Shown piece by piece: positions 16,543-64,000 of a stretch of DNA of 64,000 nt. A model generated the notes under the pieces. It was not told where the DNA came from. It ran no database searches and worked only from the letters and a program-made list of their open reading frames with translations. Position 1 is the first letter of the stretch. The number at the start of each line of letters is the position of its first letter. The DNA is taken from positions 84,784 through 148,783 of IMG/VR virus record IMGVR_UViG_3300044998_001357; one strand, given 5' to 3'. Source of the stretch: a virus. The position numbers and the translations under genes were made by a program.

Positions 16543-19500
16543 TTAACCCGGACAATCTGCGGCAACGATATACCATTTGTTGTCCGTGGGAATGTAACTG
16601 ACGATGACCTTGGTGGGAGCATTGACCGCCGTCCCAAACCAGTTCCAGACCGTTAGGCTTGTGTAGTTGGTATTGTCGCCATCATAGGCTCCCCCGGCCC
16701 GAACCACCATGAGGCCACTTCCCTGCGGAGGAACGTCGTGGTATATCCGGCCCTTGAGAGTACCATGACAGGTCCAGACCCCCCGCATGTCGTCCCACAA
16801 TGGGTCCAGAGGGCCGGCCTTCCATTTGTCTTGTCGGTAGGTATGGTCGTGGTCAAAGGTCGTGCCGTCGCCACTTCCTGGGATGCATTTACCATCCAGA
16901 CCAAAGCCCCAACCCACCAGTACCACCGGTGCTCGCAGCCCAAAGACGCGTGCAGAGGTAGGGGTGGCCCCACGCCGAAACGCATGAAGACCCCGGTAAC
17001 TCTCCCCCCAGGTGTAGACCTCGATATCGTTGGCCTGCTTCCAGGGGTTTAGCTGGGCCACCCCGGGAATAACCCCATTAATCAGCTGGTTCTGTAATCT
17101 GGGCATTGAGCCCTGATAGCCACCGGCTGAAAACGGTCGAAACAGACCGTCAAGCGACATAATTGCCGTGTTCTTGAAAAGTTCCGTATTGGTGGCGTTG
17201 CAGAGCGAGACGCACTCTTCAAAGGTCGCGGTGAAAGTGTTCTGGCGATAGGCCTGGGTGTCGGAGTCCCAGAATCCGTGAGACAGCAAGCAGTCGTGAG
17301 GGGTCTCGCGTTTTCGTGCCTTGGCCTGTCGCTCCATCCAGACCCGTGCCCCTCGGGCGGCGTTACCCAGAGCGATATTTTGCCGGACCTGCTCTTTAAG
17401 CGCCAGCCGCATCGCCCGACGTAGTTCCATGTTGGCCAGGGAATTCTGACGCATCCGCTCAATAAAGGCCTTGGATAGCACCCCGAAGCGAGGGGTGAAG
17501 GTCTGGAATCGATACGAGGTGGTCACCCCCTGGGTGCCACACTGCACATCAATGGAGGTGATATTGGGTCCACCGGCCTCGAGAAGGTTGCCCAGCGAGG
17601 TAGTGGGCGGACCGACCAACTCCATCGTACCGGTCTCGCTGACCTGCATGTTGGTGATGGCCTGCAGCACCCGGGCCTGGCCGGCCAGATTCATCAGGGC
17701 ATGTCCACCGTAATTCCACGGGGTTAATGAGGGGTCTTGTTCCATTCGTACCTTGCCCGGGGCACCGGAGGCAAACCAGGGACCATAAAATGATGTGTTG
17801 GACTTAAGCGGAATACAGGCGACGGTCGGATGTCGAACCGCCGCCGATACCTTGATGGGAATCGGGGCTTGCTGCAAGCGTTTTTGTGCTTGCTGGGGGT
17901 TCATCTGCAACACAGCGGCGACAATATCGAGATTGCCCACGTTGTCCGGCGATTGCTCGACAACCGGTCCGCTCAGCGAGACCACAACACACGGTTCCGG
18001 GGCGGATACCATCCGTGGGTCAACTTGGACCTCCAGATAAAGCGTATTGTTTTCCAGCACCGCTCCCTGGGGGGAAATCCGGGAGAAGTCAACGCCGGCA
18101 AGATTGGAGTAGGCAACAAAAGCGCGAAACCGACCATCGGGATTGCGAAGCATGTCCTCATTGAGCGGAGAGAGACCCAGAGGTGCGGCGGTTTCATCAA
18201 AATATCCCGCATCGGCAACTTCGTAAGAGGTAGTTACACGACGAGTTTCTGAATCTGTCTGAACAAGGATAAAGGGCAATCCAACCAGATACTTCCGCCC
18301 CATGAACTCATCAGCATACCCGCGTACAAATTCATACATACGCATGCATTTTGCGTGAATATCTCCCTGGACGGCATTGTTAACTGCCAGTAAAACCTCC
18401 TTCCACTCGTCGTTGACAAAGTTGGCTCGTACAGGAGCCTGGTTTGCTCCACCCATGTTCAAAAACGGACTTGAGACCCCAATGATGTCGGCCATAATGG
18501 GCCGGTGTCTGCGCAGGTAAAGTGCCCAGGATTCGTAGTTCACCTGAGCCATACGCATTTCCAGAGTGGTGCAGAGATAACGGACGTTGCCCAAAATGTC
18601 TGCAACCGGCGAGGCGTTCAGATTGACAATTTCGGTATTGATTTGCTGAAGAGGTTTTCCCGCTGCGTCGTTAAACATCTCGACATAGGGCGTGCTGAGA
18701 ATCGGATTGCCGGCCGGGTCATAACCCCAAAAGTTGCGAATAGCAATGCTAGACCACATGGTATGCACTTCGCCACCTACCAGAAACGCACTGGTAAGTT
18801 CATTGCGCATTTCCAAGCCAACGGTCGAGCGAATCAGCGAACTACCCCAGTTGGAATTGGCAAGGGCGCTCAGGGTTCCCAGAGGAGGCTGCCGGAATCG
18901 GCTCACGGCCCTGATTTTGATGGTAAAGCCCACAAGCTCGACAAAAAAGTCACAGCCGCAATCCTTACAAACCTGGTCAATAATCTCCAGCAAGCTCGAT
19001 GAAACGCCACCTCCCACCCGGTAGTACTCGGGAGGAATTGGCATGTCATCTAAATCAAGTCCATATGTTTGGTTGGCAAATACCAGCGGGCCTCCATAGG
19101 CCACCGGCCGGGGAGCGTTGACCATGGCGCGGATGGCAACAGCCACCTGTCGCCAGGTCATGCCGCTATCATTAGCCCCGGAGACTCCATAGCCTACACT
19201 TTCCCAGTAACCATAGGGATTGAGCAGATTGGGTACATTTCCGACCGAGCCGGAATACCCACCGGTGATTACCTGGGTGCCCTCAAGAATTTCTCGTGGG
19301 TCACTGAGCACCACGCTGTAAACCGGGTTTCCCTCAGTACCCCGACCCGTCTCGGCCTTCTGGAGTAGCCCCCGGAAGGTGAAGCCGTAAAACTGAAAAG
19401 AAAGGGGGGTGCCGACCTTGGGCAGCTGAACGAACAACCCCTGAACCGGGTCGTCCACCAGCTGGAGATTAAGTTGGCTGGGTGAGCCAAGCCCCAGCCC

Positions 19501-19557
19501 AAGAGAACTCGAAAACGAGCGCACCAAACCACCAAGGAATGTACCTGGAATAATCAT
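16543..19557 (-). CDS. Large tail-tip/baseplate hub-like structural protein
   Basis: A 1,004-residue protein. The N-terminal 250 residues (IIPGTFLGGLVRSFSSSLGL, QLPKVGTPLSFQFYGFTFRG, LSDPREILEGTQVITGGYSG, LLEIIDQVCKDCGCDFFVEL) look like a hub/tail-associated protein of the kind that follows tape measures: it sets up ring-forming beta domains. The middle has long beta-rich stretches, and residues 720-780 are Arg/Ala helical (MELRRAMRLALKEQVRQNIA). The C-terminal third is Gly/Trp/Tyr-rich, a possible receptor-facing region. Reads away from a 427-bp divergent intergenic region that probably holds its promoter. Confidence 0.6.
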   Translation of the reverse strand: MIIPGTFLGGLVRSFSSSLGLGLGSPSQLNLQLVDDPVQGLFVQLPKVGTPLSFQFYGFTFRGLLQKAETGRGTEGNPVYSVVLSDPREILEGTQVITGGYSGSVGNVPNLLNPYGYWESVGYGVSGANDSGMTWRQVAVAIRAMVNAPRPVAYGGPLVFANQTYGLDLDDMPIPPEYYRVGGGVSSSLLEIIDQVCKDCGCDFFVELVGFTIKIRAVSRFRQPPLGTLSALANSNWGSSLIRSTVGLEMRNELTSAFLVGGEVHTMWSSIAIRNFWGYDPAGNPILSTPYVEMFNDAAGKPLQQINTEIVNLNASPVADILGNVRYLCTTLEMRMAQVNYESWALYLRRHRPIMADIIGVSSPFLNMGGANQAPVRANFVNDEWKEVLLAVNNAVQGDIHAKCMRMYEFVRGYADEFMGRKYLVGLPFILVQTDSETRRVTTSYEVADAGYFDETAAPLGLSPLNEDMLRNPDGRFRAFVAYSNLAGVDFSRISPQGAVLENNTLYLEVQVDPRMVSAPEPCVVVSLSGPVVEQSPDNVGNLDIVAAVLQMNPQQAQKRLQQAPIPIKVSAAVRHPTVACIPLKSNTSFYGPWFASGAPGKVRMEQDPSLTPWNYGGHALMNLAGQARVLQAITNMQVSETGTMELVGPPTTSLGNLLEAGGPNITSIDVQCGTQGVTTSYRFQTFTPRFGVLSKAFIERMRQNSLANMELRRAMRLALKEQVRQNIALGNAARGARVWMERQAKARKRETPHDCLLSHGFWDSDTQAYRQNTFTATFEECVSLCNATNTELFKNTAIMSLDGLFRPFSAGGYQGSMPRLQNQLINGVIPGVAQLNPWKQANDIEVYTWGESYRGLHAFRRGATPTSARVFGLRAPVVLVGWGFGLDGKCIPGSGDGTTFDHDHTYRQDKWKAGPLDPLWDDMRGVWTCHGTLKGRIYHDVPPQGSGLMVVRAGGAYDGDNTNYTSLTVWNWFGTAVNAPTKVIVSYIPTDNKWYIVAADCPG

Positions 19558-19984
19558 ATGCTACTTCCATTCAATTGCTTGAATGATTCTCGTTTCGACG
19601 CCCCAGCGTTAAAGTCTCGATTGTGGGATACACCGCACACACAAACCCATTCTCGATAGTCGACCACAGGCCCAGTCGGAACTTAATCCACCTTTGCAAT
19701 CCTGCAAGGGGCGTAATGAAAAATTTTGCCGACACACCGCGAACTCCTTCATAATTTTATTTTTTAATTGTGTGAGTTATCGTTAGCGCCGTGCTCCAAG
19801 GCGCAACAGCGAAAAATAAAAATTTTGTGGTAGTCAAAGCTTGGACTCTGGAGATAGAATTAAGCAGGCCATGTTAAGGAGGAATACGTAAATACAGAAT
19901 AAGACAAGAGTCAAGAAACTAAGATTCTAGTGGTCGGTAGTAGACTGCGTCGGTGTAGTATCTCCTAGGATAAGGGGGATTCTA
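19558..19984. promoter_or_regulatory. Divergent 427-bp intergenic region
   Basis: No credible ORF on either strand. It is AT-rich in two patches (19720-19770 and 19810-19835), has a small hairpin GCGCC...GGCGC (19786-19804), and a Shine-Dalgarno-like AAGGAGG (near 19877) not followed by a usable start. It separates the minus-strand tip gene from the plus-strand genes beginning at 19985, so it should hold promoters for both. Confidence 0.6.
19726..19755 (+). promoter_or_regulatory. Possible sigma70-type promoter
   Basis: TTGCCG, an 18-base spacer, then CATAAT: a fair sigma70-like pair inside the AT-rich part of the divergent intergenic region, about 230 bases upstream of the 19985 gene. Other AT-rich hexamers nearby could serve, and a phage sigma-like factor is encoded at 58671, so this is tentative. 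Confidence 0.25.
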
Positions 19985-51061: not shown

Positions 51062-54000
51062 CTAATCTCGTCTCACGACAGCACCGTAGGGCTTGTCCTT
51101 GCCCCAGTGTTGTTTCCAGTTTTCGGCCCACCAGCCGCCCTGTCCATCGCGGGCAATCCATAGGTCACCCTGGGTATTTCTTGGTCCTATGGAATGGGCA
51201 AAACCACCCTGCGGGTCGTATTCCGGCACAGACTGCTGTCGCTGGAGCGTGCGGCCGACCATGTTGGCCATCAACAGTGCTGAATAGCGGTCCTTGCGCA
51301 AACGACCCTTCTTGCTGCCCACCGATTTCACCGAGGGTGTATCCCAGCGGTCACGCATGGAAGTGCCGGTCTGGGTGTGGATGATGGAGGCCAGTTCATC
51401 CTTGAGTTCCTCGATTTCCATGACGCAGTCTTCCAAGGTGTCGTAGAGTCGTCGAACGGAGGAGTCCTCAGGGTCGACCTGGACGCGCCCCAGGGCTTTG
51501 TCTTCCTCAAAGGCCAGCGCGACAATGGCCGGGTCAAAGGCAGGGAAGAGCAGGGCGCGGTCTTCGAAATCCTTTCGCATTCCGTGATTGGCGTCCCGCA
51601 CCCAGTCGGCATTGGCAAACGGGGCTGTCTCGATGATGTGCTCGCCCGAAAGCACATCAGTGGGACTGGGCTTTTTTTCGTCGATAATGGGCAAAATACG
51701 CACCTCACCGGGCTGTAGCCGGTTGGTGTCCTGGAGGGCCTCGATGATAGACACGCCACCACCTTGCATGTCCATGCAGATTCTCTGGCAGGGAAAGACG
51801 GCCAGTAGTTCGCGAATTTTCCGGGCGCAAAAACCGTAAAAGTCCTGGTCGGAAGCGAGACCCTTTTCCAGTCGCGACTTAAAGCGGGAGCGGGTGGTGG
51901 TCCAGCAGTAGACGATGCGGCGGTGTTCCGGCCAGCACTCCAGCACCACAATGCTGAAGTTATCCAGTTCGCTGGCCGGGTCGACCCCCATCACATAGTG
52001 ACGATTGGGCACCCCCTTGAGTACGGCATTGAAATGTACCGGTCCCGAGGAGGGATGCTCAATTACCCGTTCGCGGCGACCCACGACACAGGCCTCGATA
52101 AGGCTCCGCTTGAAGAAGCCGTTGGAATCCGTGGCGAAGACTGCCCCATATTCCATTTGGTAGGTGCCGATGTGGACCGTGGCCTTGGCCTGGGCAATCT
52201 GCTTAGGGTTCATGAATCCAGGCGGAAGGGCTTCAACCGGAATACGGATGATGCAATAGTCCTTCCAGTTTAGGTTCTTGTCGACCTTATCTGGGCCGCC
52301 AAACGCCTCGGCGAGCTTTCTCAGGTCTCCCTTGGATTCGATAATCGCCTTGTATCGTTTCCAGTAGTCGTAGAAATGGTTGAAGCTGTAGTAAGCGGTG
52401 CCGCTGATAATGGTCTGGTTGGTGACCGTCATCGACTCCTGGAGCGCCTGGTGGGCATCGGTCCACAGGCCCAGTTCCCGGATGGCCGACTTGCGTGCTT
52501 CTTGGATGGCCTCATCGACCGGGTTCATGTTCACGGCGGCAAAGCCGCGAACCACGGTCTCGAAGATGTCCTTCGGAATAGAGTTATGTTGAATAAAACA
52601 GTTGCCAATAAAACGATGTGTACCCGGGACGTGGTAGTCGTACAGGACGCGTTGGCCGGGAAGCGCCTCAACGAGACGGACACGCTCGCAGGAAGGTTTC
52701 TGCCCCTCTGCACCAGAAACGCCCGAATCAAGTAATCGAAACAGTTGCCCAAAGGAGCAGGAGTCAAATCTCAAGCACCAACACCCCTTAACCTCGCCGG
52801 CCGAACGGTGACAGACGATTCCGAACTTATGCAGCAGCACCTGCAACTCCCTGACGAGTTGCTCCGAGGGTGACTCGTACCGGCAGCTGCTAACGCCAAT
52901 GGTTCGGCTCAGGGCCTTGCCCTTATCAAACAATCCCGAAAGGAACGAGACAACAACCTCTCGTGGCGAGCGCAGGATGAACCAGGGGATTTTGCCGGGC
53001 TGCGCCGAGAGCTCCCTGCCGGTCGCCCTGGCAAAAGCCTCATCGACCACGCTGCCGTCGACGCTCGCCATTGTCTCAGGGAAGCGTCCGCTTGATTGGT
53101 GAACCAGATAATCCTCGGCGGAGAGTTCGTGGCCCAGTTTCCATCCCTTGGTCGTCAGAACCTTGTGGATGGAGGAACACACGAACTCGTAGCCGTTGGT
53201 CGTCGTCACCCGGTAGGCTTCGGTGGGGGGAGTCTCCACAAACAGGTCGGGAACGATAGGCTTGGAGTCGTCGGGTTGCAAGAGCGCATAACCGCCCGAG
53301 TCTGCTTCGTGGTCTCCAATGCGGACGAGGCCGCAGTCCGTTTCAATGAGCGTGTCCCTGTCTAGACAAGCAAATTCATCAGAGATGATGATGTTTGCTC
53401 TTTGTCCGCGAATCTTACTATTGTGGCTGATTATTCCAAATGCACAATATTCATGTATGTCTGGCACATGAATATCGTATGTTGCACATGAAGAGTCAAC
53501 TATTTCTTCAATTGTATCGTAGTAGATATCGGGATTGGCAAGCTCACGGAGCTTGGGCAGGAAGGCGTCTTGGACATGCGCGTACTTATCAACGAATTCC
53601 CGCGTGATACACGTCTCCTGCTTGGCGGAAAGCGCCTCTTTTAGTTGGTGCGACTTATGCGAAAGGCGAAAACCGATATGCTCGGCGAACCTGCGAACAT
53701 CCTGCCCGTAGATGAGCAACTCATATTTCTCGTTGTGTTCCCTTATGCGCAATCGGGAAATGATTCCGAAGTGAAGCAGGATGAACTGGAGTTGCCTCAC
53801 GAGCCGCTCGCTCGAGTTCGTGAAGCCGACAGTGACACCGCTTTTGGCTTTGCCGACCTGGATGTAGCCATTGGTGTCGTAGAGCCCCCGAATACAAGCC
53901 GACATCGCGTCGCGACCGGCGCGAAGTATCGCCGGCGGCAAGACCTTATCTTTCGTCGTCGAGTGCTCGGATTTGTCGTAGGCGTTGAAATGGGGGTGGT

Positions 54001-56140
54001 CGGAAATATTCGTCCCTCGATATAGCCATTCCTGGTCCATCGTGGCGCAGCCCAGCTTATATGGGTTGGTCCAGCAGCCGTCCCCAATCATGAGACCAAG
54101 GGTGTACGCCTCGTCTGTGGTTACCGGCTCCTGGCCCTTGTGCCACCGCCAAGAACGGTCGATGGGTAAGCGGTCGCCAGGACGGACTTGGTCGAGCCGT
54201 TTCCAGACAAACTCCAGACCTTCAAGCACTCGTATCTTGTGGTTGTGCGTTCCTTCCAGGCGAAGGCCTAGGGCCGTGGTTAGTACTTTGGTGTCCTTTA
54301 CGCCGTTGAAGTAGGACTCGTCAGAACGGACGAACTCCTTGCGTTCCGAAGACCAGACACGACGCTCGCGCGCGACCACAGGCTCCGCCACGCCGCCGCT
54401 GTCTTCGCCAATGGTTCCAAATCCGTCCTCATAGGTCACCATCGTATCGGCCGACAGGCAGCCATCTCCAAGGGGTAGGGCCACCAAGAGCGATTCGCCC
54501 AGACGAAGCGTGCAGCGGTCGATATCGCGTCGGGGGCCATTCTTTTTGTTATCACCAACGATATCGCGCAGGATGGGTGATTTTTCCCAGAAGTCGGCAC
54601 AGTAATCAAAAACCACTTTGGCCTGTCGAAAGGCCGCGCCGACAATCACTATCTTGCTACCCTGGTGAAAAAGACCGCGCAGCATGGCGTACAGGGCAAC
54701 GATGAAGCTATTGTGGGAGACGAAACCATTGCTGATAAAGGAGTTACCCTCCGGAACATGAACATCGTAGGTGACGCACCGCCCGGTCGATACCTTGGAA
54801 ATAGTGTCGAAATACCATCCTCGCGAGACCCATTCCCGCAGACGGCGATGAGCATCAGTATTGTAGTATTCCGACATATGAGCGAGAAACCCGTTAAGCC
54901 ACTCGTAAGTGCAGCAATAGTTTCGCGAAAACTTTGTAGTTCCACTTTGTCGTCTAACGCCGGTGCGCATCTGCATCAGCGAAATAACATCTTTTTCGAT
55001 AATAGAATAAGGTACGAAATCCTGGTCGGTGTTGTGCTTAAGCCCCGGCAGTTGCTTTCGCGTGAGACCAAAACCAATCTTGTCGCGAAACGCTACCAGG
55101 TCGTTGCTACGAATCTCCAGAACCCAATCGTTTTTTTGGTGGGGCTTGCTACGTTTGGCAATGATTCCGAAGCGAGTTAACAAGAACTGCACGGTCCTGA
55201 TGAGCTTTTCCGACTTCGCGGAGAGATGAACCGAGGATTCATCAACACCGCCATTGGTGTCGTAAAGACCCCGCAAAAACGCGGCGCACGCCTCCTTAGA
55301 ACCGGTAAGGATAGAGCGGGGAACATCTTTCTCTTCACAGACACTGGAAGGAAAACCGTATTCGGCAAGTGTTTCCTTGCTCGAATGGGTGTAGGCGTAC
55401 TTGGCCTTGCCCCAGTATTTTGCGACGACCTCGGCCAGTTCAGAGTCTGCTGTGGTAAGAGTGAAACCATCATCTCCTGCGATTAGACCAAGCAGATAGG
55501 CCAGGTCTTCAGGCAGACTTTTTTCCGGGGTGTGCCAGGACTCTCGTCTTTCAACAAGGATACTATCCCCGACCCGAACATCTGCGAGATTTCTCCAGAC
55601 AACTTTACCATCAGCCACAACCCGAACAGGATGATTGAGTGTTCCCTCAAGCTCAAAGCCCATTTTGCTCTCAATCCGAACCGTCTCCGACATCCCGTTG
55701 TTCCAGGAGTAGGCCACGTCCCGGAAGCCGTTTTCACCGTCGATGGTCAGCCCAGGCTTAAAAACGGGCTCCTGAATAGCTTCTGTTTGAGCAAGTTCAT
55801 CTATCCTGCAAATTCCCTGATTGGTGTGGACCAGAGTGTCTCCACGAACGCATTTTCCCAAACCTCGGCTTCCAATAAGCATTGGAAACGGACGTTTCCA
55901 GAGCTCCTGGAGAATGGCCAGCTGAAAAGGGTGGAGCCGGATTCCGAAGAGATGCTTCACAGTGAAATAAAAGTATTCAGGCTGCCGCATCAAATCGAGA
56001 CAATGCACCAGCGGCTGCTCGACCGCCTCGGGGGTCTGAGCCTCCAAAGGATTGATGGTCTGGATTTTGGTGGTATCACCCAAACCCATCCAGGCATTCT
56101 CGATATATTGTCTCTGCCACTCAATCGGCTTGTTTGACAT
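51062..56140 (-). CDS. terL: Terminase large subunit with three inteins
   Basis: A 1,692-residue precursor whose spliced product would be about 702 residues. The extein is a DNA-packaging motor: Walker A GSRGLGK-S, Walker B IIISDEFA, and a C-terminal nuclease domain with MGVDPASELDNFSIVVLE (RNase H-like first Asp) and RICMDMQGGG. Three inteins interrupt it at GK/S (Walker A), DG/S and FA/S (after Walker B). Start taken as ATG 56140; an ATG at 56173 adds 11 residues within the nuclease gene. Overlaps the ERCC4 nuclease gene by 20 bases. Splicing is required for function. Confidence 0.9.
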   Translation of the reverse strand: MSNKPIEWQRQYIENAWMGLGDTTKIQTINPLEAQTPEAVEQPLVHCLDLMRQPEYFYFTVKHLFGIRLHPFQLAILQELWKRPFPMLIGSRGLGKCVRGDTLVHTNQGICRIDELAQTEAIQEPVFKPGLTIDGENGFRDVAYSWNNGMSETVRIESKMGFELEGTLNHPVRVVADGKVVWRNLADVRVGDSILVERRESWHTPEKSLPEDLAYLLGLIAGDDGFTLTTADSELAEVVAKYWGKAKYAYTHSSKETLAEYGFPSSVCEEKDVPRSILTGSKEACAAFLRGLYDTNGGVDESSVHLSAKSEKLIRTVQFLLTRFGIIAKRSKPHQKNDWVLEIRSNDLVAFRDKIGFGLTRKQLPGLKHNTDQDFVPYSIIEKDVISLMQMRTGVRRQSGTTKFSRNYCCTYEWLNGFLAHMSEYYNTDAHRRLREWVSRGWYFDTISKVSTGRCVTYDVHVPEGNSFISNGFVSHNSFIVALYAMLRGLFHQGSKIVIVGAAFRQAKVVFDYCADFWEKSPILRDIVGDNKKNGPRRDIDRCTLRLGESLLVALPLGDGCLSADTMVTYEDGFGTIGEDSGGVAEPVVARERRVWSSERKEFVRSDESYFNGVKDTKVLTTALGLRLEGTHNHKIRVLEGLEFVWKRLDQVRPGDRLPIDRSWRWHKGQEPVTTDEAYTLGLMIGDGCWTNPYKLGCATMDQEWLYRGTNISDHPHFNAYDKSEHSTTKDKVLPPAILRAGRDAMSACIRGLYDTNGYIQVGKAKSGVTVGFTNSSERLVRQLQFILLHFGIISRLRIREHNEKYELLIYGQDVRRFAEHIGFRLSHKSHQLKEALSAKQETCITREFVDKYAHVQDAFLPKLRELANPDIYYDTIEEIVDSSCATYDIHVPDIHEYCAFGIISHNSKIRGQRANIIISDEFACLDRDTLIETDCGLVRIGDHEADSGGYALLQPDDSKPIVPDLFVETPPTEAYRVTTTNGYEFVCSSIHKVLTTKGWKLGHELSAEDYLVHQSSGRFPETMASVDGSVVDEAFARATGRELSAQPGKIPWFILRSPREVVVSFLSGLFDKGKALSRTIGVSSCRYESPSEQLVRELQVLLHKFGIVCHRSAGEVKGCWCLRFDSCSFGQLFRLLDSGVSGAEGQKPSCERVRLVEALPGQRVLYDYHVPGTHRFIGNCFIQHNSIPKDIFETVVRGFAAVNMNPVDEAIQEARKSAIRELGLWTDAHQALQESMTVTNQTIISGTAYYSFNHFYDYWKRYKAIIESKGDLRKLAEAFGGPDKVDKNLNWKDYCIIRIPVEALPPGFMNPKQIAQAKATVHIGTYQMEYGAVFATDSNGFFKRSLIEACVVGRRERVIEHPSSGPVHFNAVLKGVPNRHYVMGVDPASELDNFSIVVLECWPEHRRIVYCWTTTRSRFKSRLEKGLASDQDFYGFCARKIRELLAVFPCQRICMDMQGGGVSIIEALQDTNRLQPGEVRILPIIDEKKPSPTDVLSGEHIIETAPFANADWVRDANHGMRKDFEDRALLFPAFDPAIVALAFEEDKALGRVQVDPEDSSVRRLYDTLEDCVMEIEELKDELASIIHTQTGTSMRDRWDTPSVKSVGSKKGRLRKDRYSALLMANMVGRTLQRQQSVPEYDPQGGFAHSIGPRNTQGDLWIARDGQGGWWAENWKQHWGKDKPYGAVVRRD
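52583..53368 (-). other. Intein 3 (262 residues), endonuclease decayed
   Basis: Begins CLDRDTLIETDCGL right after Walker B DEFA and ends FIQHN before Ser +1. Block B is SSIH. It keeps the second endonuclease half (FLSGLFDKGKA, then SPSEQLVRELQVLLHKFGIV) but the first LAGLIDADG motif and about 100 residues are missing, so it is probably a splicing-only intein left after deletion. Confidence 0.85.
53420..54460 (-). other. Intein 2 (347 residues) between the ATPase motifs
   Basis: Begins CLSADTMVTYEDGF after PLGDG and ends FGIISHN before Ser +1. Block B reads GTHNHKIRVL. LAGLIDADG motifs LGLMIGDGCW and CIRGLYDTNGY are both present. The region around the second motif resembles the same part of intein 1 and intein 3, implying a common ancestor. 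Confidence 0.9.
54710..55852 (-). other. Intein 1 (381 residues) in the terminase Walker A
   Basis: Begins CVRGDTLVHTNQGI (block A) straight after GLGK and ends FVSHN, followed by Ser +1. GTLNHPVRVV is block B. The endonuclease is the two-motif LAGLIDADG type: LLGLIAGDDGF and FLRGLYDTNGG, about 72 residues apart. Class 1 (Cys1, His-Asn end). It disrupts the nucleotide-binding loop, so unspliced protein cannot bind ATP. Both acidic catalytic positions are kept, so it may be an active homing intein. Confidence 0.9.
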
Positions 56141-56588
56141 TTTCGATAACTCGCTTAAACAGAGAAGAAGCAAACTCTCGCCCCATTTGCCCCGCGAAAA
56201 TAAAGCGAGTTCGATAACGAATTTGAAACTCGTTTAATCTCTTGAGAAGAAACTGTGGCGAGATTCGCAGTGTGGACCAGCGAGAACGAGGAATTCCTGA
56301 GTTGTGGGGGAAATTTATAACGTCTTCAAGTGTAAATTCACACACAAGAAAAGGGTAAGCAAAAGATTCGAGACGCTGGAGTTCTCTCTCAAACCGGGAC
56401 TGAACGATGTTTTGAGAGATTTCACCCGTGCTCATTTTGCGTTCAATAACAAACACATTTTCATAGCCATCAAGCGTGTAGTCGCCCGTCTTGAGGGTGG
56501 CATCAACGGTCCCCAGACATAAGTCCTTCGCGGGAAAGTCCCAGCCTTGCTGCTCCCGGGTGTCGCGAAGAACCTTATATTTTTCCAT
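56121..56588 (-). CDS. ERCC4-type nuclease
   Basis: A 155-residue XPF/ERCC4-fold nuclease domain without helicase: KVLRDTREQQGWDFP near the N-terminus, GDYTLDGYENVFVIERKMS (the GDY and V-x-E-R-K active-site motif), then IVQSRFERELQRLESFAYP. All catalytic residues (D, E, R, K) are seen. It should cut branched or flap DNA, useful in recombination, replication ends or packaging. Coupled upstream of the terminase by a 20-base overlap. Confidence 0.85.
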   Translation of the reverse strand: MEKYKVLRDTREQQGWDFPAKDLCLGTVDATLKTGDYTLDGYENVFVIERKMSTGEISQNIVQSRFERELQRLESFAYPFLVCEFTLEDVINFPHNSGIPRSRWSTLRISPQFLLKRLNEFQIRYRTRFIFAGQMGREFASSLFKRVIENVKQAD

Positions 56589-57841: not shown

Positions 57842-58681
57842 TCACTCCTCCTCTCCATACTCCAAGGTATCGGCAGATAAAATAGGTAAGTCTTCGCTAT
57901 TGTCTTCGTACTTAAACGGCTTACCAAAATTCTCGTGGGCTTTCTGGCCGGCGAGTCGCATCAACTCCATCTCACGGCCCTCGCGGGCCTTGGCATCGCG
58001 CTGCTGGAGCATCTTGATGATAGAGATAAGATTGGTCTTGCTGCCCTCGATTTCCTTGATACGCTGGTCGCGAATGGCCTTAAGTGATTTCATCAACGAC
58101 TCGTGCCGCTCCTGCAGCTTCACGTACTCGTTGGTTCGACTTTGCTCAGCCGAGCGGTACGCATTCAACTGGTTTTCTAGATTCGTGGCGTATTCTCGGT
58201 CGCTCTCATCCATCGCGTTGTGGTCTTCAGCGAACTGCTCCAGGTGGTCGCGAAGTACCCGCTCCAGGCGGTCAATCTCATCCCGAGCCCGGCGACGCTC
58301 CTTAAGGTTACGCGCCATCAGTAGTTCATATTTGATTGCCTGGAAAAGTTGCGTCTCTTCAGACGGCAGAACGTCGTCCTTAAACTGACTCATCAGCTTA
58401 ACATACGTCTCTTCAAAATATTTGATTTCTTCGTTGGAGAATTCGTTGCGAAGCATTTTCCACGCCTCGCTTAATCGAAGCTCCTGGCGGATGACCAGTT
58501 TTTTGGCTTCGCTCTCATCAATCTCGCGCATGGTTTCCGGGGCGTGCAACCGAAGAAATTCGGTCACACACTCCACGGTCCGTTTGAGTTTAACAGCGAT
58601 GTCATCGGGTTTCATCGTATCTGACCAGCGGAGAATCAGGTCTTGCTCCGCCTTACTCAATCGGCCCCGTTTAATGTTCAT
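57842..58681 (-). CDS. Helical coiled-coil protein, small-terminase candidate
   Basis: A 279-residue protein. The N-terminus LSKAEQDLILRWSDTMKPDD followed by IAVKLKRTVECVTEFLRLH is a helix-turn-helix; the middle is a long charged coiled coil (EIDRLERVLRDHLEQFAEDH, EYVKLQERHESLMKSLKAIR). A DNA-binding head plus oligomerising coil and its place two genes before the large terminase fit a small terminase subunit, but no motif proves it. Stop is one base before the dehydratase start. Confidence 0.45.
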   Translation of the reverse strand: MNIKRGRLSKAEQDLILRWSDTMKPDDIAVKLKRTVECVTEFLRLHAPETMREIDESEAKKLVIRQELRLSEAWKMLRNEFSNEEIKYFEETYVKLMSQFKDDVLPSEETQLFQAIKYELLMARNLKERRRARDEIDRLERVLRDHLEQFAEDHNAMDESDREYATNLENQLNAYRSAEQSRTNEYVKLQERHESLMKSLKAIRDQRIKEIEGSKTNLISIIKMLQQRDAKAREGREMELMRLAGQKAHENFGKPFKYEDNSEDLPILSADTLEYGEEE

Positions 58682-59252
58682 GGATTACCTCTTTCAGAAT
58701 GGTTCGAACCGCTTCCTCGACCTGCGTGCGTTGATGCTTAGGCACAGAGACGCCATCACGCATCTTCAGATAAAGAGACTGAAGTTCCAAAGGCAGGTGT
58801 TCTCGAATCCGATGGATGAGCTCGCGAACCTCAACATCATCACTTTGTCTGGCCTCGCAGGTGCCCTCGACAAACTCTCCGGGTCGAATGAGGTTAGATT
58901 TGGTTTGGTTGAGCTTCGACCACCGGGCATATCGCTTGCAAAAACCCCCATCAGGCATGCAGGGATTGCCTGAGTGGCATTTCTTGCAGGGAGGGTCGTG
59001 TCGATGGACCTTGTCGCGCACCAGATTGATTAGTCTGTTCCTTACATGAATATATAAGAAATTGGCTAGTGGTCTGGATGGGTCGTATTTACCACTATTG
59101 AGAAGTCTTAATGCGAAGAGTCTCCCGTCCTGCTTGATGTCTTCGATGTCATGATAGCCAAAAACATAGGTCCGAGCTAGAACAGAAACTACTTTATCGA
59201 TAGTCTCCAGCACCTCAGCTTCTGTCTTGCCCGGGGGTAAAATCATCGTCAC
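58671..59252 (-). CDS. Sigma-factor-like protein with Cys-rich insert
   Basis: A 193-residue protein. Residues 35-78 look like sigma70 region 2 (DIEDIKQDGRLFALRLLNSG, then YDPSRPLANFLYIHVRNRLI). An insert with four Cys and a His (CKKCHSGNPC, GGFC) follows, likely zinc binding. The C-terminus (LPLELQSLYLKMRDGVSVPK, QRTQVEEAVRTIL) resembles region 4. Such phage factors redirect host RNA polymerase to late promoters. It is the first or second gene of the minus-strand virion block, fitting a late regulator. Overlaps the next gene by 11 bases. Confidence 0.7.
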   Translation of the reverse strand: MTMILPPGKTEAEVLETIDKVVSVLARTYVFGYHDIEDIKQDGRLFALRLLNSGKYDPSRPLANFLYIHVRNRLINLVRDKVHRHDPPCKKCHSGNPCMPDGGFCKRYARWSKLNQTKSNLIRPGEFVEGTCEARQSDDVEVRELIHRIREHLPLELQSLYLKMRDGVSVPKHQRTQVEEAVRTILKEVIHEH

Positions 59253-59952: not shown

Positions 59953-60050
59953 GCAAGCGTAGAGGGAGTCGCGCCCCAACGTCCGGATGGGTGGTATGTC
60001 GCCACCCCAACACAACACCGACATGCCCTCATCGGGCAAAGGGAGATGCT

Positions 60051-60455
60051 ATGCAACTGCAAGACTACACGAAGGCCCAGCTGGTTATGATGCTCGCGGA
60101 CAACGGCGTGACCGCGCCGAAGTCGTGGACGAAGGAGAAATGCATTGAGGCCCTGGAAGGCAAGCGCCTTCCAAAGGGGATGGCAAAGTCGGTAGCCGCA
60201 CTCAAGGCCGAGGCAAAGGCCCGTGGCCTGGCGGGTTACTCGACCATGAACCGGGACCAACTCGTGGAGTACCTGCGGACGGGCGTCCGTCCGCAGAAGG
60301 CCTCCGTCAAGGAAGGCACGATGGACTACCTGCGTCATCTGGCCACGCAGTTCCGCGTCAAGGGCCGTAGCGCGGCCACCAACAAGGCCGCGCTCATCAA
60401 GCTCCTACGGGAGAACGGCGTCAATATCACCCCTGAAGGGAGACGCGCCGCGTAA
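60051..60455 (+). CDS. Tandem SAP/HeH-domain protein
   Basis: A 134-residue protein made of three small helix-extended-loop-helix domains: KAQLVMMLADNGVTAPKSWT, LKAEAKARGLAGYSTMNRDQ (with LVEYLRTG), and LATQFRVKGRSAATNKAALI (with KLLRENGV). This fold binds DNA or RNA (SAP, LEM, Rho-N types). ATG 60051 has AAAGGGAGATG upstream. It is likely a nucleic-acid binding accessory factor; the following 320-base structured RNA could be a target, which is speculation. Confidence 0.65.
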   Translation: MQLQDYTKAQLVMMLADNGVTAPKSWTKEKCIEALEGKRLPKGMAKSVAALKAEAKARGLAGYSTMNRDQLVEYLRTGVRPQKASVKEGTMDYLRHLATQFRVKGRSAATNKAALIKLLRENGVNITPEGRRAA

Positions 60456-60776
60456 GGGGCGCTGACGCCACAAGAAGAAACCGTCCGCACGGTGGGAAGT
60501 GCGGAACCCCAGACTGGGTGGGACACCGGAGATGCGGCCTACCGCATCGGACGTAGGTGTTACGGCGGACAACGTCCGCTTGGGGCCGAACGAGTAATCG
60601 TCGGACTTTCCCCTGGGGTACGCGGCATCTGAAAGGACCGCGTCTGGTGTGGCCGTGTGAGGCTTACACCAATCGTCGCACGCCACTAGCTCTACCTTCC
60701 TCGGAAGGGAGCCAGACGTGCAGAGGGGGACCGTAATCTCCTCGCGTCCGAAGGGTACGTCATCACCCTTCGCTAT
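60456..60776 (+). ncRNA. Highly structured non-coding stretch upstream of ribozyme 1
   Basis: About 320 bases with no credible gene but many strong hairpins: GGCG/CGCC (60458-60469), ACCGT/ACGGT overlapping CCGCAC/GTGCGG (60480-60504), GATGCGG/CCGCATC with a CCTA loop (60531-60548), GCGGAC/GTCCGC with an AAC loop (60565-60579), GCGG/CCGC (near 60622-60641), GCTC..CCTT..AAGG..GAGC (60689-60712) and CGAAGGGT/ACCCTTCG (60749-60772). It ends right at the first twister core, so the ribozyme may trim its 3' end. No known RNA family is recognised. Confidence 0.5.
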
Positions 60777-60857
60777 GCAGAGTGGCCCACTCTCCATTGG
60801 GAGAGTGGGTTAATGCCCCAGCACTATGTGGTGTAGTGCTGGCCGTCACAAGGCGGC
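60777..60857 (+). ncRNA. Twister-type self-cleaving ribozyme, copy 1
   Basis: Order of parts matches a circularly permuted twister open at P5: GCAGAGTGG, P1 hairpin (CCCACTCTCC 60786-60795 with GGAGAGTGGG 60800-60809), TTAATGCC, P3 hairpin (CCAGCACTA with TAGTGCTGG), then P4 GCCG-TCACAAGG-CGGC. P2 is TGC (60814-60816) with GCA (60777-60779). Long-range contacts can form: loop TCAC with GTGG, and CC after TTAATGC with GG of CAAGG. Predicted cut is between U60811 and A60812. It precedes the gene at 60892. Confidence 0.88.
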
Positions 60858-60863
60858 ATTCGT

Positions 60864-60881
60864 GCGGAGACGCCGCTCCGC
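60864..60881 (+). promoter_or_regulatory. Conserved hairpin after ribozyme 1
   Basis: GCGGAG, loop ACGCCG, CTCCGC. The same hairpin follows all three ribozymes, with an A-U to G-C compensatory change in copies 2 and 3. The loop side GCCGC is complementary to GCGGC of P4, so it could compete with ribozyme folding. It lies just before the ribosome site AGGTGA. Confidence 0.6.
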
Positions 60882-60891
60882 AAGGTGAACA

Positions 60892-61812
60892 ATGTTTGCA
60901 CTACCAATGGCCCCCACTCGGGGGGCTACCCCAAAAAAGGGGACCAAGGGGTACACACCCATTATGAGCATGGGGAAACTCCATGCTCTCACGAAGCGGT
61001 TGATGTCTGCCGCATCCCTTGAGGATGCGGCAGACATCCTCACTCAGGCAGCTGCTCAGCTGCCCGAGGGGAAAAGAAATTGGCGGTACTTCATACTGGC
61101 CCTCGCTGAGGGCCTACGGACACACAAAACGCCCTTCGCTGTCTTCGCGAAGGGCAACAGTAAGTTGCCATTCTACTCATTCTCCACACTGCCCCAGTAC
61201 ACGTGTCCTGGGGCAGGGGAGTGCCTCGACTTCTGCTACTCTTTCACCGGGTGGCGGTATCCCGCCACCTGGGCTCGCCAGGTACAGAACACACTGTACC
61301 TGCGCTTCCTCCCGGAGGTCATCCGGGAGGCTTTCCTCGGACTACCTAGTGATGTAGTGGTCCGACTATACGTGGATGGCGACTTCGGCAGCCATGCCGA
61401 CTTCGCCTTCTGGATGAACGCCCTAGCCGCCAGGCCCGACATTAGGGCCTACGGGTACTCAAAGTCTTGGGACATCATCTGGGAGTATTCCCGGACTGCC
61501 GCCGTCCCAAACAACTACGTTCTCAACTTGTCCTCTGGGGCAAAACCCCAGGGGGTTAGCAAAGAGCAGATGTTCACTCTCCCCTTTGTGCGGGGGGAGT
61601 TTGTGGCGGTCACCCCTCAGAGCGAGGGGATAGCCCGAGGGTTCAAACGGTACGACGACCCGGCCTACCATCGGGCGGTCAGAGCGGCCGCGAAGGAAGC
61701 CGGGATGGGCAAGGTGTTCTCATGCCCCGGCAAATGCGGGGAATGCTGTGGGGCCAACCATGCCTGTGGCATGATTGGCCTAAAGGTCACAATCGCTATC
61801 GGAACACACTAA
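60892..61812 (+). CDS. GP88-like Fe-S-type phage protein
   Basis: A 306-residue protein resembling the mycobacteriophage GP88 group. It has CPGAGECLDFCYSFTG near residue 104, an Arg/Asn-rich stretch with VQNTLYLRFLPEV, VVRLYVDGDFGSHADF, then RAYGYSKSW, and a C-terminal cysteine set (SCPGKCGECCGANHACGM). Three to four Cys clusters suggest an iron-sulfur or zinc enzyme, radical SAM-like in arrangement but without the CxxxCxxC core. ATG with AGGTGA upstream. Function unknown. Confidence 0.7.
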   Translation: MFALPMAPTRGATPKKGTKGYTPIMSMGKLHALTKRLMSAASLEDAADILTQAAAQLPEGKRNWRYFILALAEGLRTHKTPFAVFAKGNSKLPFYSFSTLPQYTCPGAGECLDFCYSFTGWRYPATWARQVQNTLYLRFLPEVIREAFLGLPSDVVVRLYVDGDFGSHADFAFWMNALAARPDIRAYGYSKSWDIIWEYSRTAAVPNNYVLNLSSGAKPQGVSKEQMFTLPFVRGEFVAVTPQSEGIARGFKRYDDPAYHRAVRAAAKEAGMGKVFSCPGKCGECCGANHACGMIGLKVTIAIGTH

Positions 61813-61825
61813 CTAATACGATGTT

Positions 61826-61853
61826 GCCCACCACTTCTGGGGAGGTGGTGGGC
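61826..61853 (+). promoter_or_regulatory. Hairpin before the 61870 gene
   Basis: GCCCACCAC (61826-61834) pairs with GTGGTGGGC (61845-61853), 9 bp, 10-base loop, no U-tract. It sits between a stop and the GAGGAGG ribosome site of the next gene, so it may stabilise or separate the two reading frames. Confidence 0.5.
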
Positions 61854-61869
61854 GATAGAGGAGGTTCAA

Positions 61870-62229
61870 ATGAAGTTCCAGTTGAACTGTGTGGAGTTGA
61901 AGCTTGAGCTTGTGTCATCCGGGGACGGATGGCACAATGGGGTTGTGACAACCCCGGATGGGCAGGTTTTCCATGTGGGCGGGGGCTGGACGCATACGCC
62001 AGAGTCTGCCCTCCGCGATAACCACTGCCGTGGATTGGCGGTGGACGCTTGCCCCGGCATTCGCTGGCCGGGGGCGGTCGAAGAGGGGGAATTTGAGGCC
62101 TACGCCGGCGATGATATAGGCGACCTTGACGGCCTGCTTCGGGCCGTCGGCCTCTCAAACGAAGAGAGGCAGCAAGCAGTATGTGTGGTTCAGGACGCCT
62201 CACGCGAGGCGTTCCTGGCTCTAGACTAG
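61870..62229 (+). CDS. Unknown 119-residue protein
   Basis: Begins MKFQLNCVELKLELVSSGDG, has a short beta-rich part (NGVVTTPDGQVFHVGGGWTH) and an acidic helical end (DDIGDLDGLLRAVGLSNEER). GAGGAGG 6 bases before the ATG is a strong ribosome site. Its TAG shares its last base with the start of the second ribozyme. No family recognised. Confidence 0.6.
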   Translation: MKFQLNCVELKLELVSSGDGWHNGVVTTPDGQVFHVGGGWTHTPESALRDNHCRGLAVDACPGIRWPGAVEEGEFEAYAGDDIGDLDGLLRAVGLSNEERQQAVCVVQDASREAFLALD

Positions 62230-62315
62230 CAGAGTGGCCCGTCCCCCTATAGAGGGGGGGCGGGTTAATGCCCCGGCTTGTCGCATGGTGCGGCAGTCGG
62301 CCGTCACAAGGCGGC
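62229..62315 (+). ncRNA. Twister-type self-cleaving ribozyme, copy 2
   Basis: Same order as copy 1: GCAGAGTGG, P1 (CCCGTCCCCC 62238-62247 with GGGGGGCGGG 62255-62264, one G-U), TTAATGCC, P3 with a different sequence but the same pairing (CCGGC-TGTCGCA with TGCGGCA-GTCGG, one bulge), and identical P4 loop TCACAAGG. The many base changes that keep the stems are strong support for RNA function. Predicted cut between U62266 and A62267. It starts at the last base of the previous stop. Confidence 0.88.
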
Positions 62316-62320
62316 ATTCA

Positions 62321-62339
62321 CGCGGGGAGCCGCCCCGCG
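62321..62339 (+). promoter_or_regulatory. Conserved hairpin after ribozyme 2
   Basis: CGCGGGG, loop AGCCG, CCCCGCG: 7-bp perfect stem, one base before CAGGAGA, the ribosome site of the 62358 gene. Compared with copy 1 the stem changed A-U to G-C, keeping the pairing. Confidence 0.6.
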
Positions 62340-62357
62340 CAGGAGAAGATAAGACCG

Positions 62358-63458
62358 ATGGAAAAGAACATGCTCGTTATCCTCGGGGCATCCGACCCCG
62401 AGATGGCCCTTATCGAAGAGTTGTGCAGGGACTACAGCATCCCCTACGCCTACGCCATCGGGGGTGACGGTCGCCGGGTGCACCCCGGCGACGCCTATAA
62501 GGCATCAGGCCTGCAATGGCCTGGCAAGGCAGGCGGACCCGGGTGGGGGGATGTGACCCACTTGATTGAATGCTCGCCATCCGGCGAGCACCAGGACGCC
62601 ATACGCTCCGATGTGGTGGTGATTGACCACCACCGGCCGGGCGACCCCGGCTATGGTCGTGGTCCCGAGGAGTTCATGGCTGCCTCCTCGGTCGGGCAGT
62701 TCATTGCCGAGCTTGCCCGGCTCGGCATCTACGGATGTCGACATAGCAGTAACGACCCGGCCTACGACCTGTGGGGAGGCCGGGGAAAGGCGTTCGCCGG
62801 AGCAATCGACCGGCGAAAGGATTGGCAGTGGGACTACTATGTAGCCACCACTGCCCCCGCCTCGGGCGGGGTTATTGGTATCTCCTCTCGCGGCGCTCGG
62901 CGGTCCAGCGCCTCCGACATGGAGGCGTACGGGAAACGGGAAGGGGGGATGCTGTCCCCCGACGAGCGGCGCATCCTTGAAGACTCGTCCCCACCAGTGG
63001 AGAAGGTCACACTGCGTTGGGTTGCCATCCTGCAAGACATCGTGAGGGCCGCAGCGGCCGACCATTGCTTGGAGGCCGCATACCGGGGACGGTGCCCTGG
63101 GGTCGACCCCGATGCCCTCATGCGGTGGAGAGCGGACTCCCGTGCCGCTTTCCAGCGTCGGCCTGTCGAGGCCGTGCTGGCCGACATCGAGGCGGCACGG
63201 CAGCGGCTGCGAATGGCTTCATCGGGTGAATTCGCTGACCTGCGAGGGGAGTCTATCCCCGAGCTACCGGAGGCGGCGGCCCGGGAAGGAATTCCGTTCT
63301 TGGCCGACCAGACCGACCGCTCCGGTCGGCGCAAGGTGGTGCTGATGGCGGCACCGGCAGACCTTGTACAGCGGTTCTTGGCCGGGGAAATCGTCCCCAG
63401 CCTGGTGGACCACTACGGCGACCCCGCACGTGGGTTTGCCGGTGGTTACATACAGTGA
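62358..63458 (+). CDS. DHH-like phosphoesterase domain protein
   Basis: A 366-residue protein. SDVVVIDHHRPGDPGYGRGP is the DHH motif of the RecJ/nanoRNase/pyrophosphatase superfamily; a Rossmann-like start (MLVILGASDPEMALIEELCR) and FMAASSVGQFIAELARLG follow the usual pattern. The second half (MRWRADSRAAFQRRPVEAVL, RGESIPELPEAAAREGIPFL) is less clear and may replace the DHHA1 substrate domain. It may degrade short DNA or RNA, or a nucleotide second messenger. Start ATG 62358 with AGGAGA upstream; the longer frame from 62268 would begin inside the ribozyme. Confidence 0.65.
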   Translation: MEKNMLVILGASDPEMALIEELCRDYSIPYAYAIGGDGRRVHPGDAYKASGLQWPGKAGGPGWGDVTHLIECSPSGEHQDAIRSDVVVIDHHRPGDPGYGRGPEEFMAASSVGQFIAELARLGIYGCRHSSNDPAYDLWGGRGKAFAGAIDRRKDWQWDYYVATTAPASGGVIGISSRGARRSSASDMEAYGKREGGMLSPDERRILEDSSPPVEKVTLRWVAILQDIVRAAAADHCLEAAYRGRCPGVDPDALMRWRADSRAAFQRRPVEAVLADIEAARQRLRMASSGEFADLRGESIPELPEAAAREGIPFLADQTDRSGRRKVVLMAAPADLVQRFLAGEIVPSLVDHYGDPARGFAGGYIQ

Positions 63459-63459
63459 T

Positions 63460-63545
63460 GCAGAGTGGCCCGCTCTCCCTATAGAGGGGGGAGCGGGTTA
63501 ATGCCCCAGCACTATGTGGTGTAGTGCTGGCCGTCACAAGGCGGC
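63460..63545 (+). ncRNA. Twister-type self-cleaving ribozyme, copy 3
   Basis: GCAGAGTGG, P1 (CCCGCTCTCCC 63469-63479 with GGGGGAGCGGG 63487-63497), TTAATGCC, P3 (CCAGCACTA with TAGTGCTGG, same as copy 1), P4 GCCG-TCACAAGG-CGGC. P1 differs from both other copies while keeping pairing. Predicted cut between U63499 and A63500. It follows the DHH gene stop at once and precedes the last, partial gene. Confidence 0.88.
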
Positions 63546-63551
63546 ATTCAA

Positions 63552-63569
63552 GCGGGGACGCCGCCCCGC
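63552..63569 (+). promoter_or_regulatory. Conserved hairpin after ribozyme 3
   Basis: GCGGGG, loop ACGCCG, CCCCGC, then CAAGGAGATGAGACCAATGG with the ribosome site and start. Same layout as after copies 1 and 2. Confidence 0.6.
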
Positions 63570-63584
63570 AAGGAGATGAGACCA

Positions 63585-64000
63585 ATGGAAAAAAACACCC
63601 CCACTGAAGCGGCAGCAGCGCTCGCTGGGCTGCTGACGCAATATAAGGCGGCTCTAGCGGCCCGCCACGCGGCCGAAGAGGCCCTAGACCAGGAGGCCAT
63701 TGATGCGGCCAACGCGGGTCTGGGACAGATACGCGACAAAGTCCGGGAGATGATGAAGAACATCTCCCCGGAGGAGTTGAGCGACCGCCGATGTTATACG
63801 CTCGTGTTAGCCGCATCTCGCGGCGCAACGCCGCGAGGCCTCCGCGATATTGCGGAGGCTCTCGTAGTCTCTTGCGAGGACGGTATCACCGTCCCAGCGC
63901 ACCGGTACGAGTCTATGTTCCGGGGCCGTGGCTGGGCGCGGCTTGAGAAAGGTGATGGTGATGGTGAGGTCTGGGCCGAACGTGTGGCAGGCGGATACCG
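63585..64000 (+). CDS. Unknown protein, 3' end outside window
   Basis: Open from ATG 63585 to the last base with no stop: 138 codons visible. It begins MEKNTPTEAAAALAGLLTQY, an alanine-rich coiled-coil-like helix, then ISPEELSDRRCYTLVLAASR and VVSCEDGITVPAHRYESMFR. Its leader MEKN is identical to the first residues of the 62358 product, hinting that leader, ribosome site and start were duplicated together. AAGGAGA upstream. Function unknown. Confidence 0.6.
   Translation, partial: MEKNTPTEAAAALAGLLTQYKAALAARHAAEEALDQEAIDAANAGLGQIRDKVREMMKNISPEELSDRRCYTLVLAASRGATPRGLRDIAEALVVSCEDGITVPAHRYESMFRGRGWARLEKGDGDGEVWAERVAGGY

Follow-up and report, generated by a model that had tools for sequence, protein, structure and literature searches.

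The right end of a virus record carries a series of small RNA motifs set between genes of one strand. We analysed a stretch of 64,000 nt (the window), which is the right end (84784–148783) of the 148,783-base IMG/VR virus record IMGVR_UViG_3300044998_001357. As judged from sequence comparison, three elements in the window, and five in the record as a whole, are probably genuine type-P5 twister ribozymes that are used as intercistronic cutters. In window coordinates, the three elements are as follows.

60776–60857, + strand: type-P5 twister, copy 1 (RF02684, 37.0 bits); predicted cleavage between U60811 and A60812
62228–62315, + strand: type-P5 twister, copy 2 (RF02684, 34.8 bits); predicted cleavage between U62266 and A62267
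63459–63545, + strand: type-P5 twister, copy 3 (RF02684, 38.0 bits); predicted cleavage between U63499 and A63500

The first-pass annotation of this DNA had described three twister-like leaders in the order of a circularly permuted (P5) twister and had proposed an Infernal search with the Rfam twister models. Both the description and the permutation were borne out. Each window copy contains, in order, GCAGAGTGG, P1, TTAATGCC, P3 and a P4 hairpin containing GTCACAAGG, with the sites before A60812, A62267 and A63500 that had been expected. All three copies match the type-P5 model specifically (cmscan E-values of 1.2e-4 to 1.8e-5 in a 5-kb search), copy 3 above the gathering score of Rfam Twister-P5 (RF02684; 37.6 bits) and copies 1 and 2 short of it by 0.6 and 2.8 bits. 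The array of three stands for the window, and the whole 148.8-kb record holds five copies, the two beyond the window lying at record positions 19156 and 19820 and scoring 37.3 and 37.4 bits. In all five, the match to the model is full-length (1–58), the core GCAGAG / UAAUGC / GUCNCAAG is present in the P5-permutation order, and the UA of the cleavage site is kept. Between 59000 and 64000, no Rfam family besides Twister-P5 was found at E ≤ 1, and the hammerhead fold was not encountered; no other Rfam family exceeded threshold in the rest of the record, and none of 14 control genomes gave a Twister-P5 match at E ≤ 0.001. A BLAST search of reference phages with the ribozyme DNA gave no match, the element being too short and variable for BLAST.

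Comparison with relatives provides strong evidence that these elements function as folded RNA. We aligned 11 sequences of the subfamily, namely the five record copies and six from related contigs, to the twister structure including the long-range contacts (pseudoknots) T1 and T2. In this alignment, 95.5% of cells pair and 10 of the 29 pairs have changed on both sides (four in P1 and six in P3); none of 500 shuffles reaches this level, and shifting the partner by 1–3 columns lowers pairing to 38–60%. P1 and P3 thus vary while keeping their pairing, as the earlier annotation had noted, except that P3 is identical in copies 1 and 3. The core, P2, P4 and the pseudoknots are invariant among these 11 sequences, so we used a wider set for their test: 255 distinct sequences that core motifs picked out of viral and bacterial contigs, the search pattern leaving one T1 base free per side. 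Here, the proposed T1 and T2 contacts were upheld. The variable T1 pair is Watson–Crick in 252 of the 255 sequences (5,000 shuffles: mean 119.5, maximum 145), and the T2 position is paired in 238 (mean 175.4, maximum 192). Among sequences picked without regard to P1 and P3, P1 is fully paired in 87% of relatives versus 4% with strands swapped, and P3 in 93% versus 24%. P4 also covaries across relatives. P2 falls outside the covariation test because the search pattern fixed it, and pairing of the upstream flank with the sequence after P4, as a P5 stem, showed no excess over shuffles (4.5% versus 3.8%).

The position of the ribozymes between genes is similarly constrained. Across 184 structure-passing viral copies, with offsets measured from GCAGAG, a same-strand gene stops at −40 to +24 nt in 172, and in 100 of these the stop lies at −2 to +1. 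A stop together with a ribosome site and start is found at 155 of the 184 copies, compared with 130 of 1,110 random same-strand positions (12%). Stop and ribozyme can share bases: in TAG followed by CAGAG the stop uses the ribozyme's own G, and other stops, TGAs, fall inside GCAGAGTGA (offset +9). Downstream, P4 is followed at a median distance of about 25 nt by the next start, which has a ribosome site. Genes packed this closely leave little space for a promoter between them, so the units would have to come from a longer transcript.

The earlier claim that the three window copies precede the ribosome sites of the starts at 60892, 62358 and 63585 holds in the window, and placement before ribosome sites and after stops is supported over hundreds of relatives. 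The site at 60892 is weak (AAGG), and those of 62358 and 63585 are both AGGAG. Between each ribozyme and its ribosome site lies a further hairpin, predicted from sequence and fold.

60864–60881, + strand: GC-rich leader hairpin GCGGAG..CTCCGC, between ribozyme 1 and the ribosome site
62321–62339, + strand: GC-rich leader hairpin before AGGAG
63552–63569, + strand: GC-rich leader hairpin before AGGAG

Each of the five record copies is followed by such an extra GC-rich hairpin, which in four or more of them immediately precedes the ribosome site, and every copy of this family has a counterpart of it.

Two other possible roles of the freed 5′ end were considered and set aside. The AUG within the processed end AAUGCC does not behave as a leaderless start and shows no frame bias, being open and in frame in 36 of 199 cases compared with 39 and 44 for the other frames. 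The pentamer GCATT, which could pair with the freed 5′ end AAUGC, is present 5–45 nt after CAAG in 18 of 221 leaders (4.6 expected), and six-base caps against the freed end are found in only 3% of leaders; pairing of a leader segment with this end is weak and was left out of the favoured reading. The family of the window has GGCATT (with an AGCAUU form elsewhere), which overlaps the 3′ strand of P4.

Related phages carry the same arrangement in longer form. We ran the Twister-P5 model over 147 IMG/VR records behind the pattern hits, which were selected by having a hit and include a few near-duplicates, so that their counts are no population frequencies. The ribozyme was found in 138 records; two or more copies are present in 52, three or more in 28 and five or more in 13. 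The largest arrays, which span 7.6–13.6 kb, are the following.

L163 (G001:C1:21500-32000): 15 copies
L164 (G010:C1:20300-32000): 15 copies
L422 (G140:C1:15500-31000): 14 copies

Over seven arrays, 36 of the 64 intervals between ribozymes contain a single gene, whose stop touches the next ribozyme in 32 of the 36. Genes between ribozymes in L163 and L164 include VWA, GrpE-like, SprT-like and HNH proteins. In both 15-copy arrays, the VWA gene is flanked by ribozymes on each side, and the two VWA proteins are 41% identical, as in diverged phages. T1 is mostly U–A with some C–G in one of these arrays and G–C in the other. A search for further phages with the VWA array gene returned only the two already known.

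The window likewise has several ribozymes on one strand around single genes or short blocks, an array that would divide an operon. The + strand genes concerned form a group in the final 4 kb.

60892–61812, + strand: GP88-family gene, 306 amino acids (aa), first behind ribozyme 1 (Pfam PF17338, E 1.9e-16)
61870–62229, + strand: 119-aa gene, function not assigned (open reading frame; paralogue at record 18783)
62358–63458, + strand: 366-aa gene, function not assigned (open reading frame; relative in L404)
63585–64000, + strand: gene cut by the record end, 138 aa visible (open reading frame; paralogue)

Ribozymes stand before the first, third and fourth of these genes (60892, 62358 and 63585), and the units between them are the GP88 and 119-aa genes, the 366-aa gene, and the gene of 138 or more aa. 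The TAG stop of the 119-aa gene (62227–62229) shares bases with ribozyme copy 2, and the TGA stop of the 366-aa gene (63456–63458) adjoins copy 3. The relative of the 366-aa gene in L404 is 66% identical and sits directly behind a ribozyme, and the gene at 63585 is 87% identical to the gene after the record copy at 19156–19237. Protein family searches gave no family for the 119-aa gene; an IMG/VR search for its relatives returned none, yet the DNA of L012 has one, so that this search misses relatives.

In our proposed mechanism, an upstream promoter would give rise to one long + strand RNA, in which each ribozyme would fold during transcription (P2, P1, P4, T1 and T2, with P3 as an extra stabilizing stem) and cut between U and A in UUAAUGCC. 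From the identity, covariation and placement of the elements, which the sequences display, we infer this cleavage, the chemistry of the ends and an effect on stability. The upstream message would end shortly past its stop codon with GCAGAGUGG and the P1 hairpin (predicted at −21.7 to −26.7 kcal/mol for the window copies) and carry a 2′,3′-cyclic phosphate. The downstream message would start with a 5′-OH and AAUGCC, followed by the P3 and P4 hairpins, the family's further hairpin and the ribosome site. The P5 permutation suits intercistronic cutting, as it would leave a stable hairpin upstream and a 5′-OH with two or three hairpins downstream. Hairpins at the 3′ end and the lack of a 5′ monophosphate each slow the decay of bacterial mRNA, which favours cutting into separately stabilized mRNAs. 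Each gene or gene pair would get its own transcript with hairpin-protected ends and no need for host RNases, and its stability and translation would be uncoupled from those of its neighbours. A further step, to which we give very little credence, is that the released mRNAs re-ligate, with the complementary twister halves (5′ AAUGC-P3-P4 and 3′ GCAGAGUGG-P1) docking via P2, T1 and T2; if so, the phage mRNAs would become closed loops or circles resistant to exonucleases.

Several observations weigh against operon cutting. Two of the three window copies fall slightly under the Rfam cut-off, and the wider collection was picked by exact core motifs, so that core conservation there is by construction. 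A single copy, as found in 86 of the 138 records with a hit, cannot split an operon into many parts, although records are often fragments. Further, the 366-aa gene (L405–L408) and the GP88 gene have relatives at which no ribozyme is detectable, so that the ribozyme is not essential to those genes. The common single copies agree with the main rival, in which the ribozymes cut chiefly to fix the 5′ leader of the next gene and division of the operon is a side effect. Such an insulator, of which RiboJ is a synthetic example, would remove upstream sequence, so that start context and translation rate would be the same for all genes. The short, uniform spacing from P4 to the start and the extra hairpin that the family of the window conserves ahead of the ribosome site also fit this explanation, which we regard as possible rather than likely and which may work alongside operon cutting. 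However, the 5′ edge of the ribozyme is tied even more closely to the upstream stop, a link that an insulator would not require, and the long arrays would cut after many single genes.

It is less likely still that the repeats are recombination joints or selfish inserts through which phages swap cassettes, with cutting tolerated and not selected. Three gene types do recur in differing order, as 119 aa–ribozyme–366 aa–ribozyme–138 aa in the window, 124 aa–ribozyme–174 aa at 18.8–19.8 kb of the record, and 124 aa–ribozyme–174-aa type–ribozyme–366-aa type in L012/L404, and ribozyme copies have no constant gene partner. A joint, however, needs identity and not structure, whereas here pairing is kept under selection despite sequence change, and the exact placement at stop codons recurs in unrelated phages. 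Because gene order is shuffled between the two regions of the record and L012, cassette exchange may be a consequence. We consider it improbable that the elements fold and no longer cleave, serving as 3′-terminal stem-loops, protein sites or leaders that control translation. Cleavage is predicted, and the marginal scores of copies 1 and 2 would agree with such decay, but all five copies retain the UA site and the core (GCAGAG, AAUGC and CAAG) without change, and covariation is seen in the pseudoknots required for catalysis. Chance resemblance, finally, has a negligible probability and is already refuted by the Rfam match and the T1/T2 and covariation tests, given E-values down to 1.8e-5 in 5 kb, five copies, relatives in more than 100 records and the clean control genomes.

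Intercistronic cutting by these twisters can be compared with known systems. The twister ribozyme, including its type P5, was reportedly described by Roth et al. in 2014. The elements share with type P5 (RF02684), which has been reviewed (PMC5408937), the core, stem order, permutation and pseudoknots, and the Rfam model recognizes all copies; the window copies differ in their long P3, the extra hairpin before the ribosome site and scores at the edge of the cut-off. The earlier view that repeated use of a ribozyme in a phage is unusual is not supported, since many phages here share the arrangement and hammerhead clusters were reported from prophages in 2011 (PMC3088659). In that study, Perreault et al. 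found several hammerheads flanking single genes in prophages and proposed that long phage RNAs are cut into gene- or operon-length mRNAs; three hammerhead arrays cleaved in vitro, and circular and spliced products were sought and none found (PMC3088659). Both systems have several ribozymes on one strand that flank single genes or short blocks of phage DNA. The hammerheads belong to another class and their reported examples are tandem or triple, whereas the twister arrays reach 14–15 copies and join stop codons. Bacterial hammerheads and twisters are also stated to be enriched near Mu-like phage genes and other ribozymes, for a reason given as unknown (PMC10085705). The twisters there likewise lie near phage genes and ribozymes, and the text consulted gives no gene-by-gene placement rule. 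Theta ribozymes of gut phages, which are hepatitis delta virus (HDV)-like, process tRNA 3′ ends (PMC10879173). There too, a phage ribozyme replaces host RNases in RNA end formation, with the difference of an HDV-like fold acting on tRNA 3′ ends rather than mRNAs. In the early RNA of phage T7, RNase III cuts polycistronic RNA between genes and leaves hairpins at the mRNA ends. Intergenic cutting of polycistronic phage RNA and hairpin ends are common to both systems, except that a host protein enzyme cuts in T7 and the RNA itself is predicted to do so here.

The concept of ribozyme processing is thus not new, given the hammerheads of 2011, and the family was already named; the form seen here is strikingly systematic and regular. 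Our literature comparison, which covered papers other than the original twister reports, found no account of twister arrays this long or of the stop-codon rule, and the priority of both is uncertain. Thousands of small self-cleaving ribozymes in bacteria and phages have no agreed job. The placement described here follows a rule that is strict and can be counted: the ribozyme lies on the same strand, is joined to a stop and is followed by a ribosome site, in some cases behind nearly every gene. Such a rule points to a single job, the formation of the ends of each phage mRNA by ribozymes, and renders the question of function directly testable by standard RNA end mapping.

Several features of the record surround the array. 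The same three gene types appear reordered, with a ribozyme at each boundary, in L012 (1–4000), L006 (18783–19903) and the window (61870–64000), and this reordering suggests cassette shuffling at the ribozyme repeats. The right end of the record repeats a left-hand cassette, with window 63460–64000 and 61926–62370 corresponding to record 18853–19690 (88.7% identity over 541 bp and 73.8% over 446 bp). Since the record ends within this repeat, the right end may be where the assembly broke off, and the array may extend beyond it. Over the final 4 kb (60000–64000), which hold the ribozyme genes, G+C content climbs to 60–65% from 50–58%, which is consistent with an acquired cassette region. Directly before ribozyme 1, 321 nt (60456–60776, + strand) lack a convincing gene and fold at −146 kcal/mol versus −127.7 kcal/mol for shuffles (z −3.28); this segment matched no Rfam family and nothing in reference phages, and is possibly an undescribed structured RNA.

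On the opposite strand, a 1703-aa frame (51062–56173, − strand) contains three intein splicing stretches and LAGLIDADG domains, and its non-intein parts look like a phage terminase. A 193-aa gene (58671–59252, − strand) weakly resembles sigma-70 region 2 (Pfam E 4e-5, slightly short of the cut-off) and is assigned by PHROG as an RNA polymerase sigma factor.

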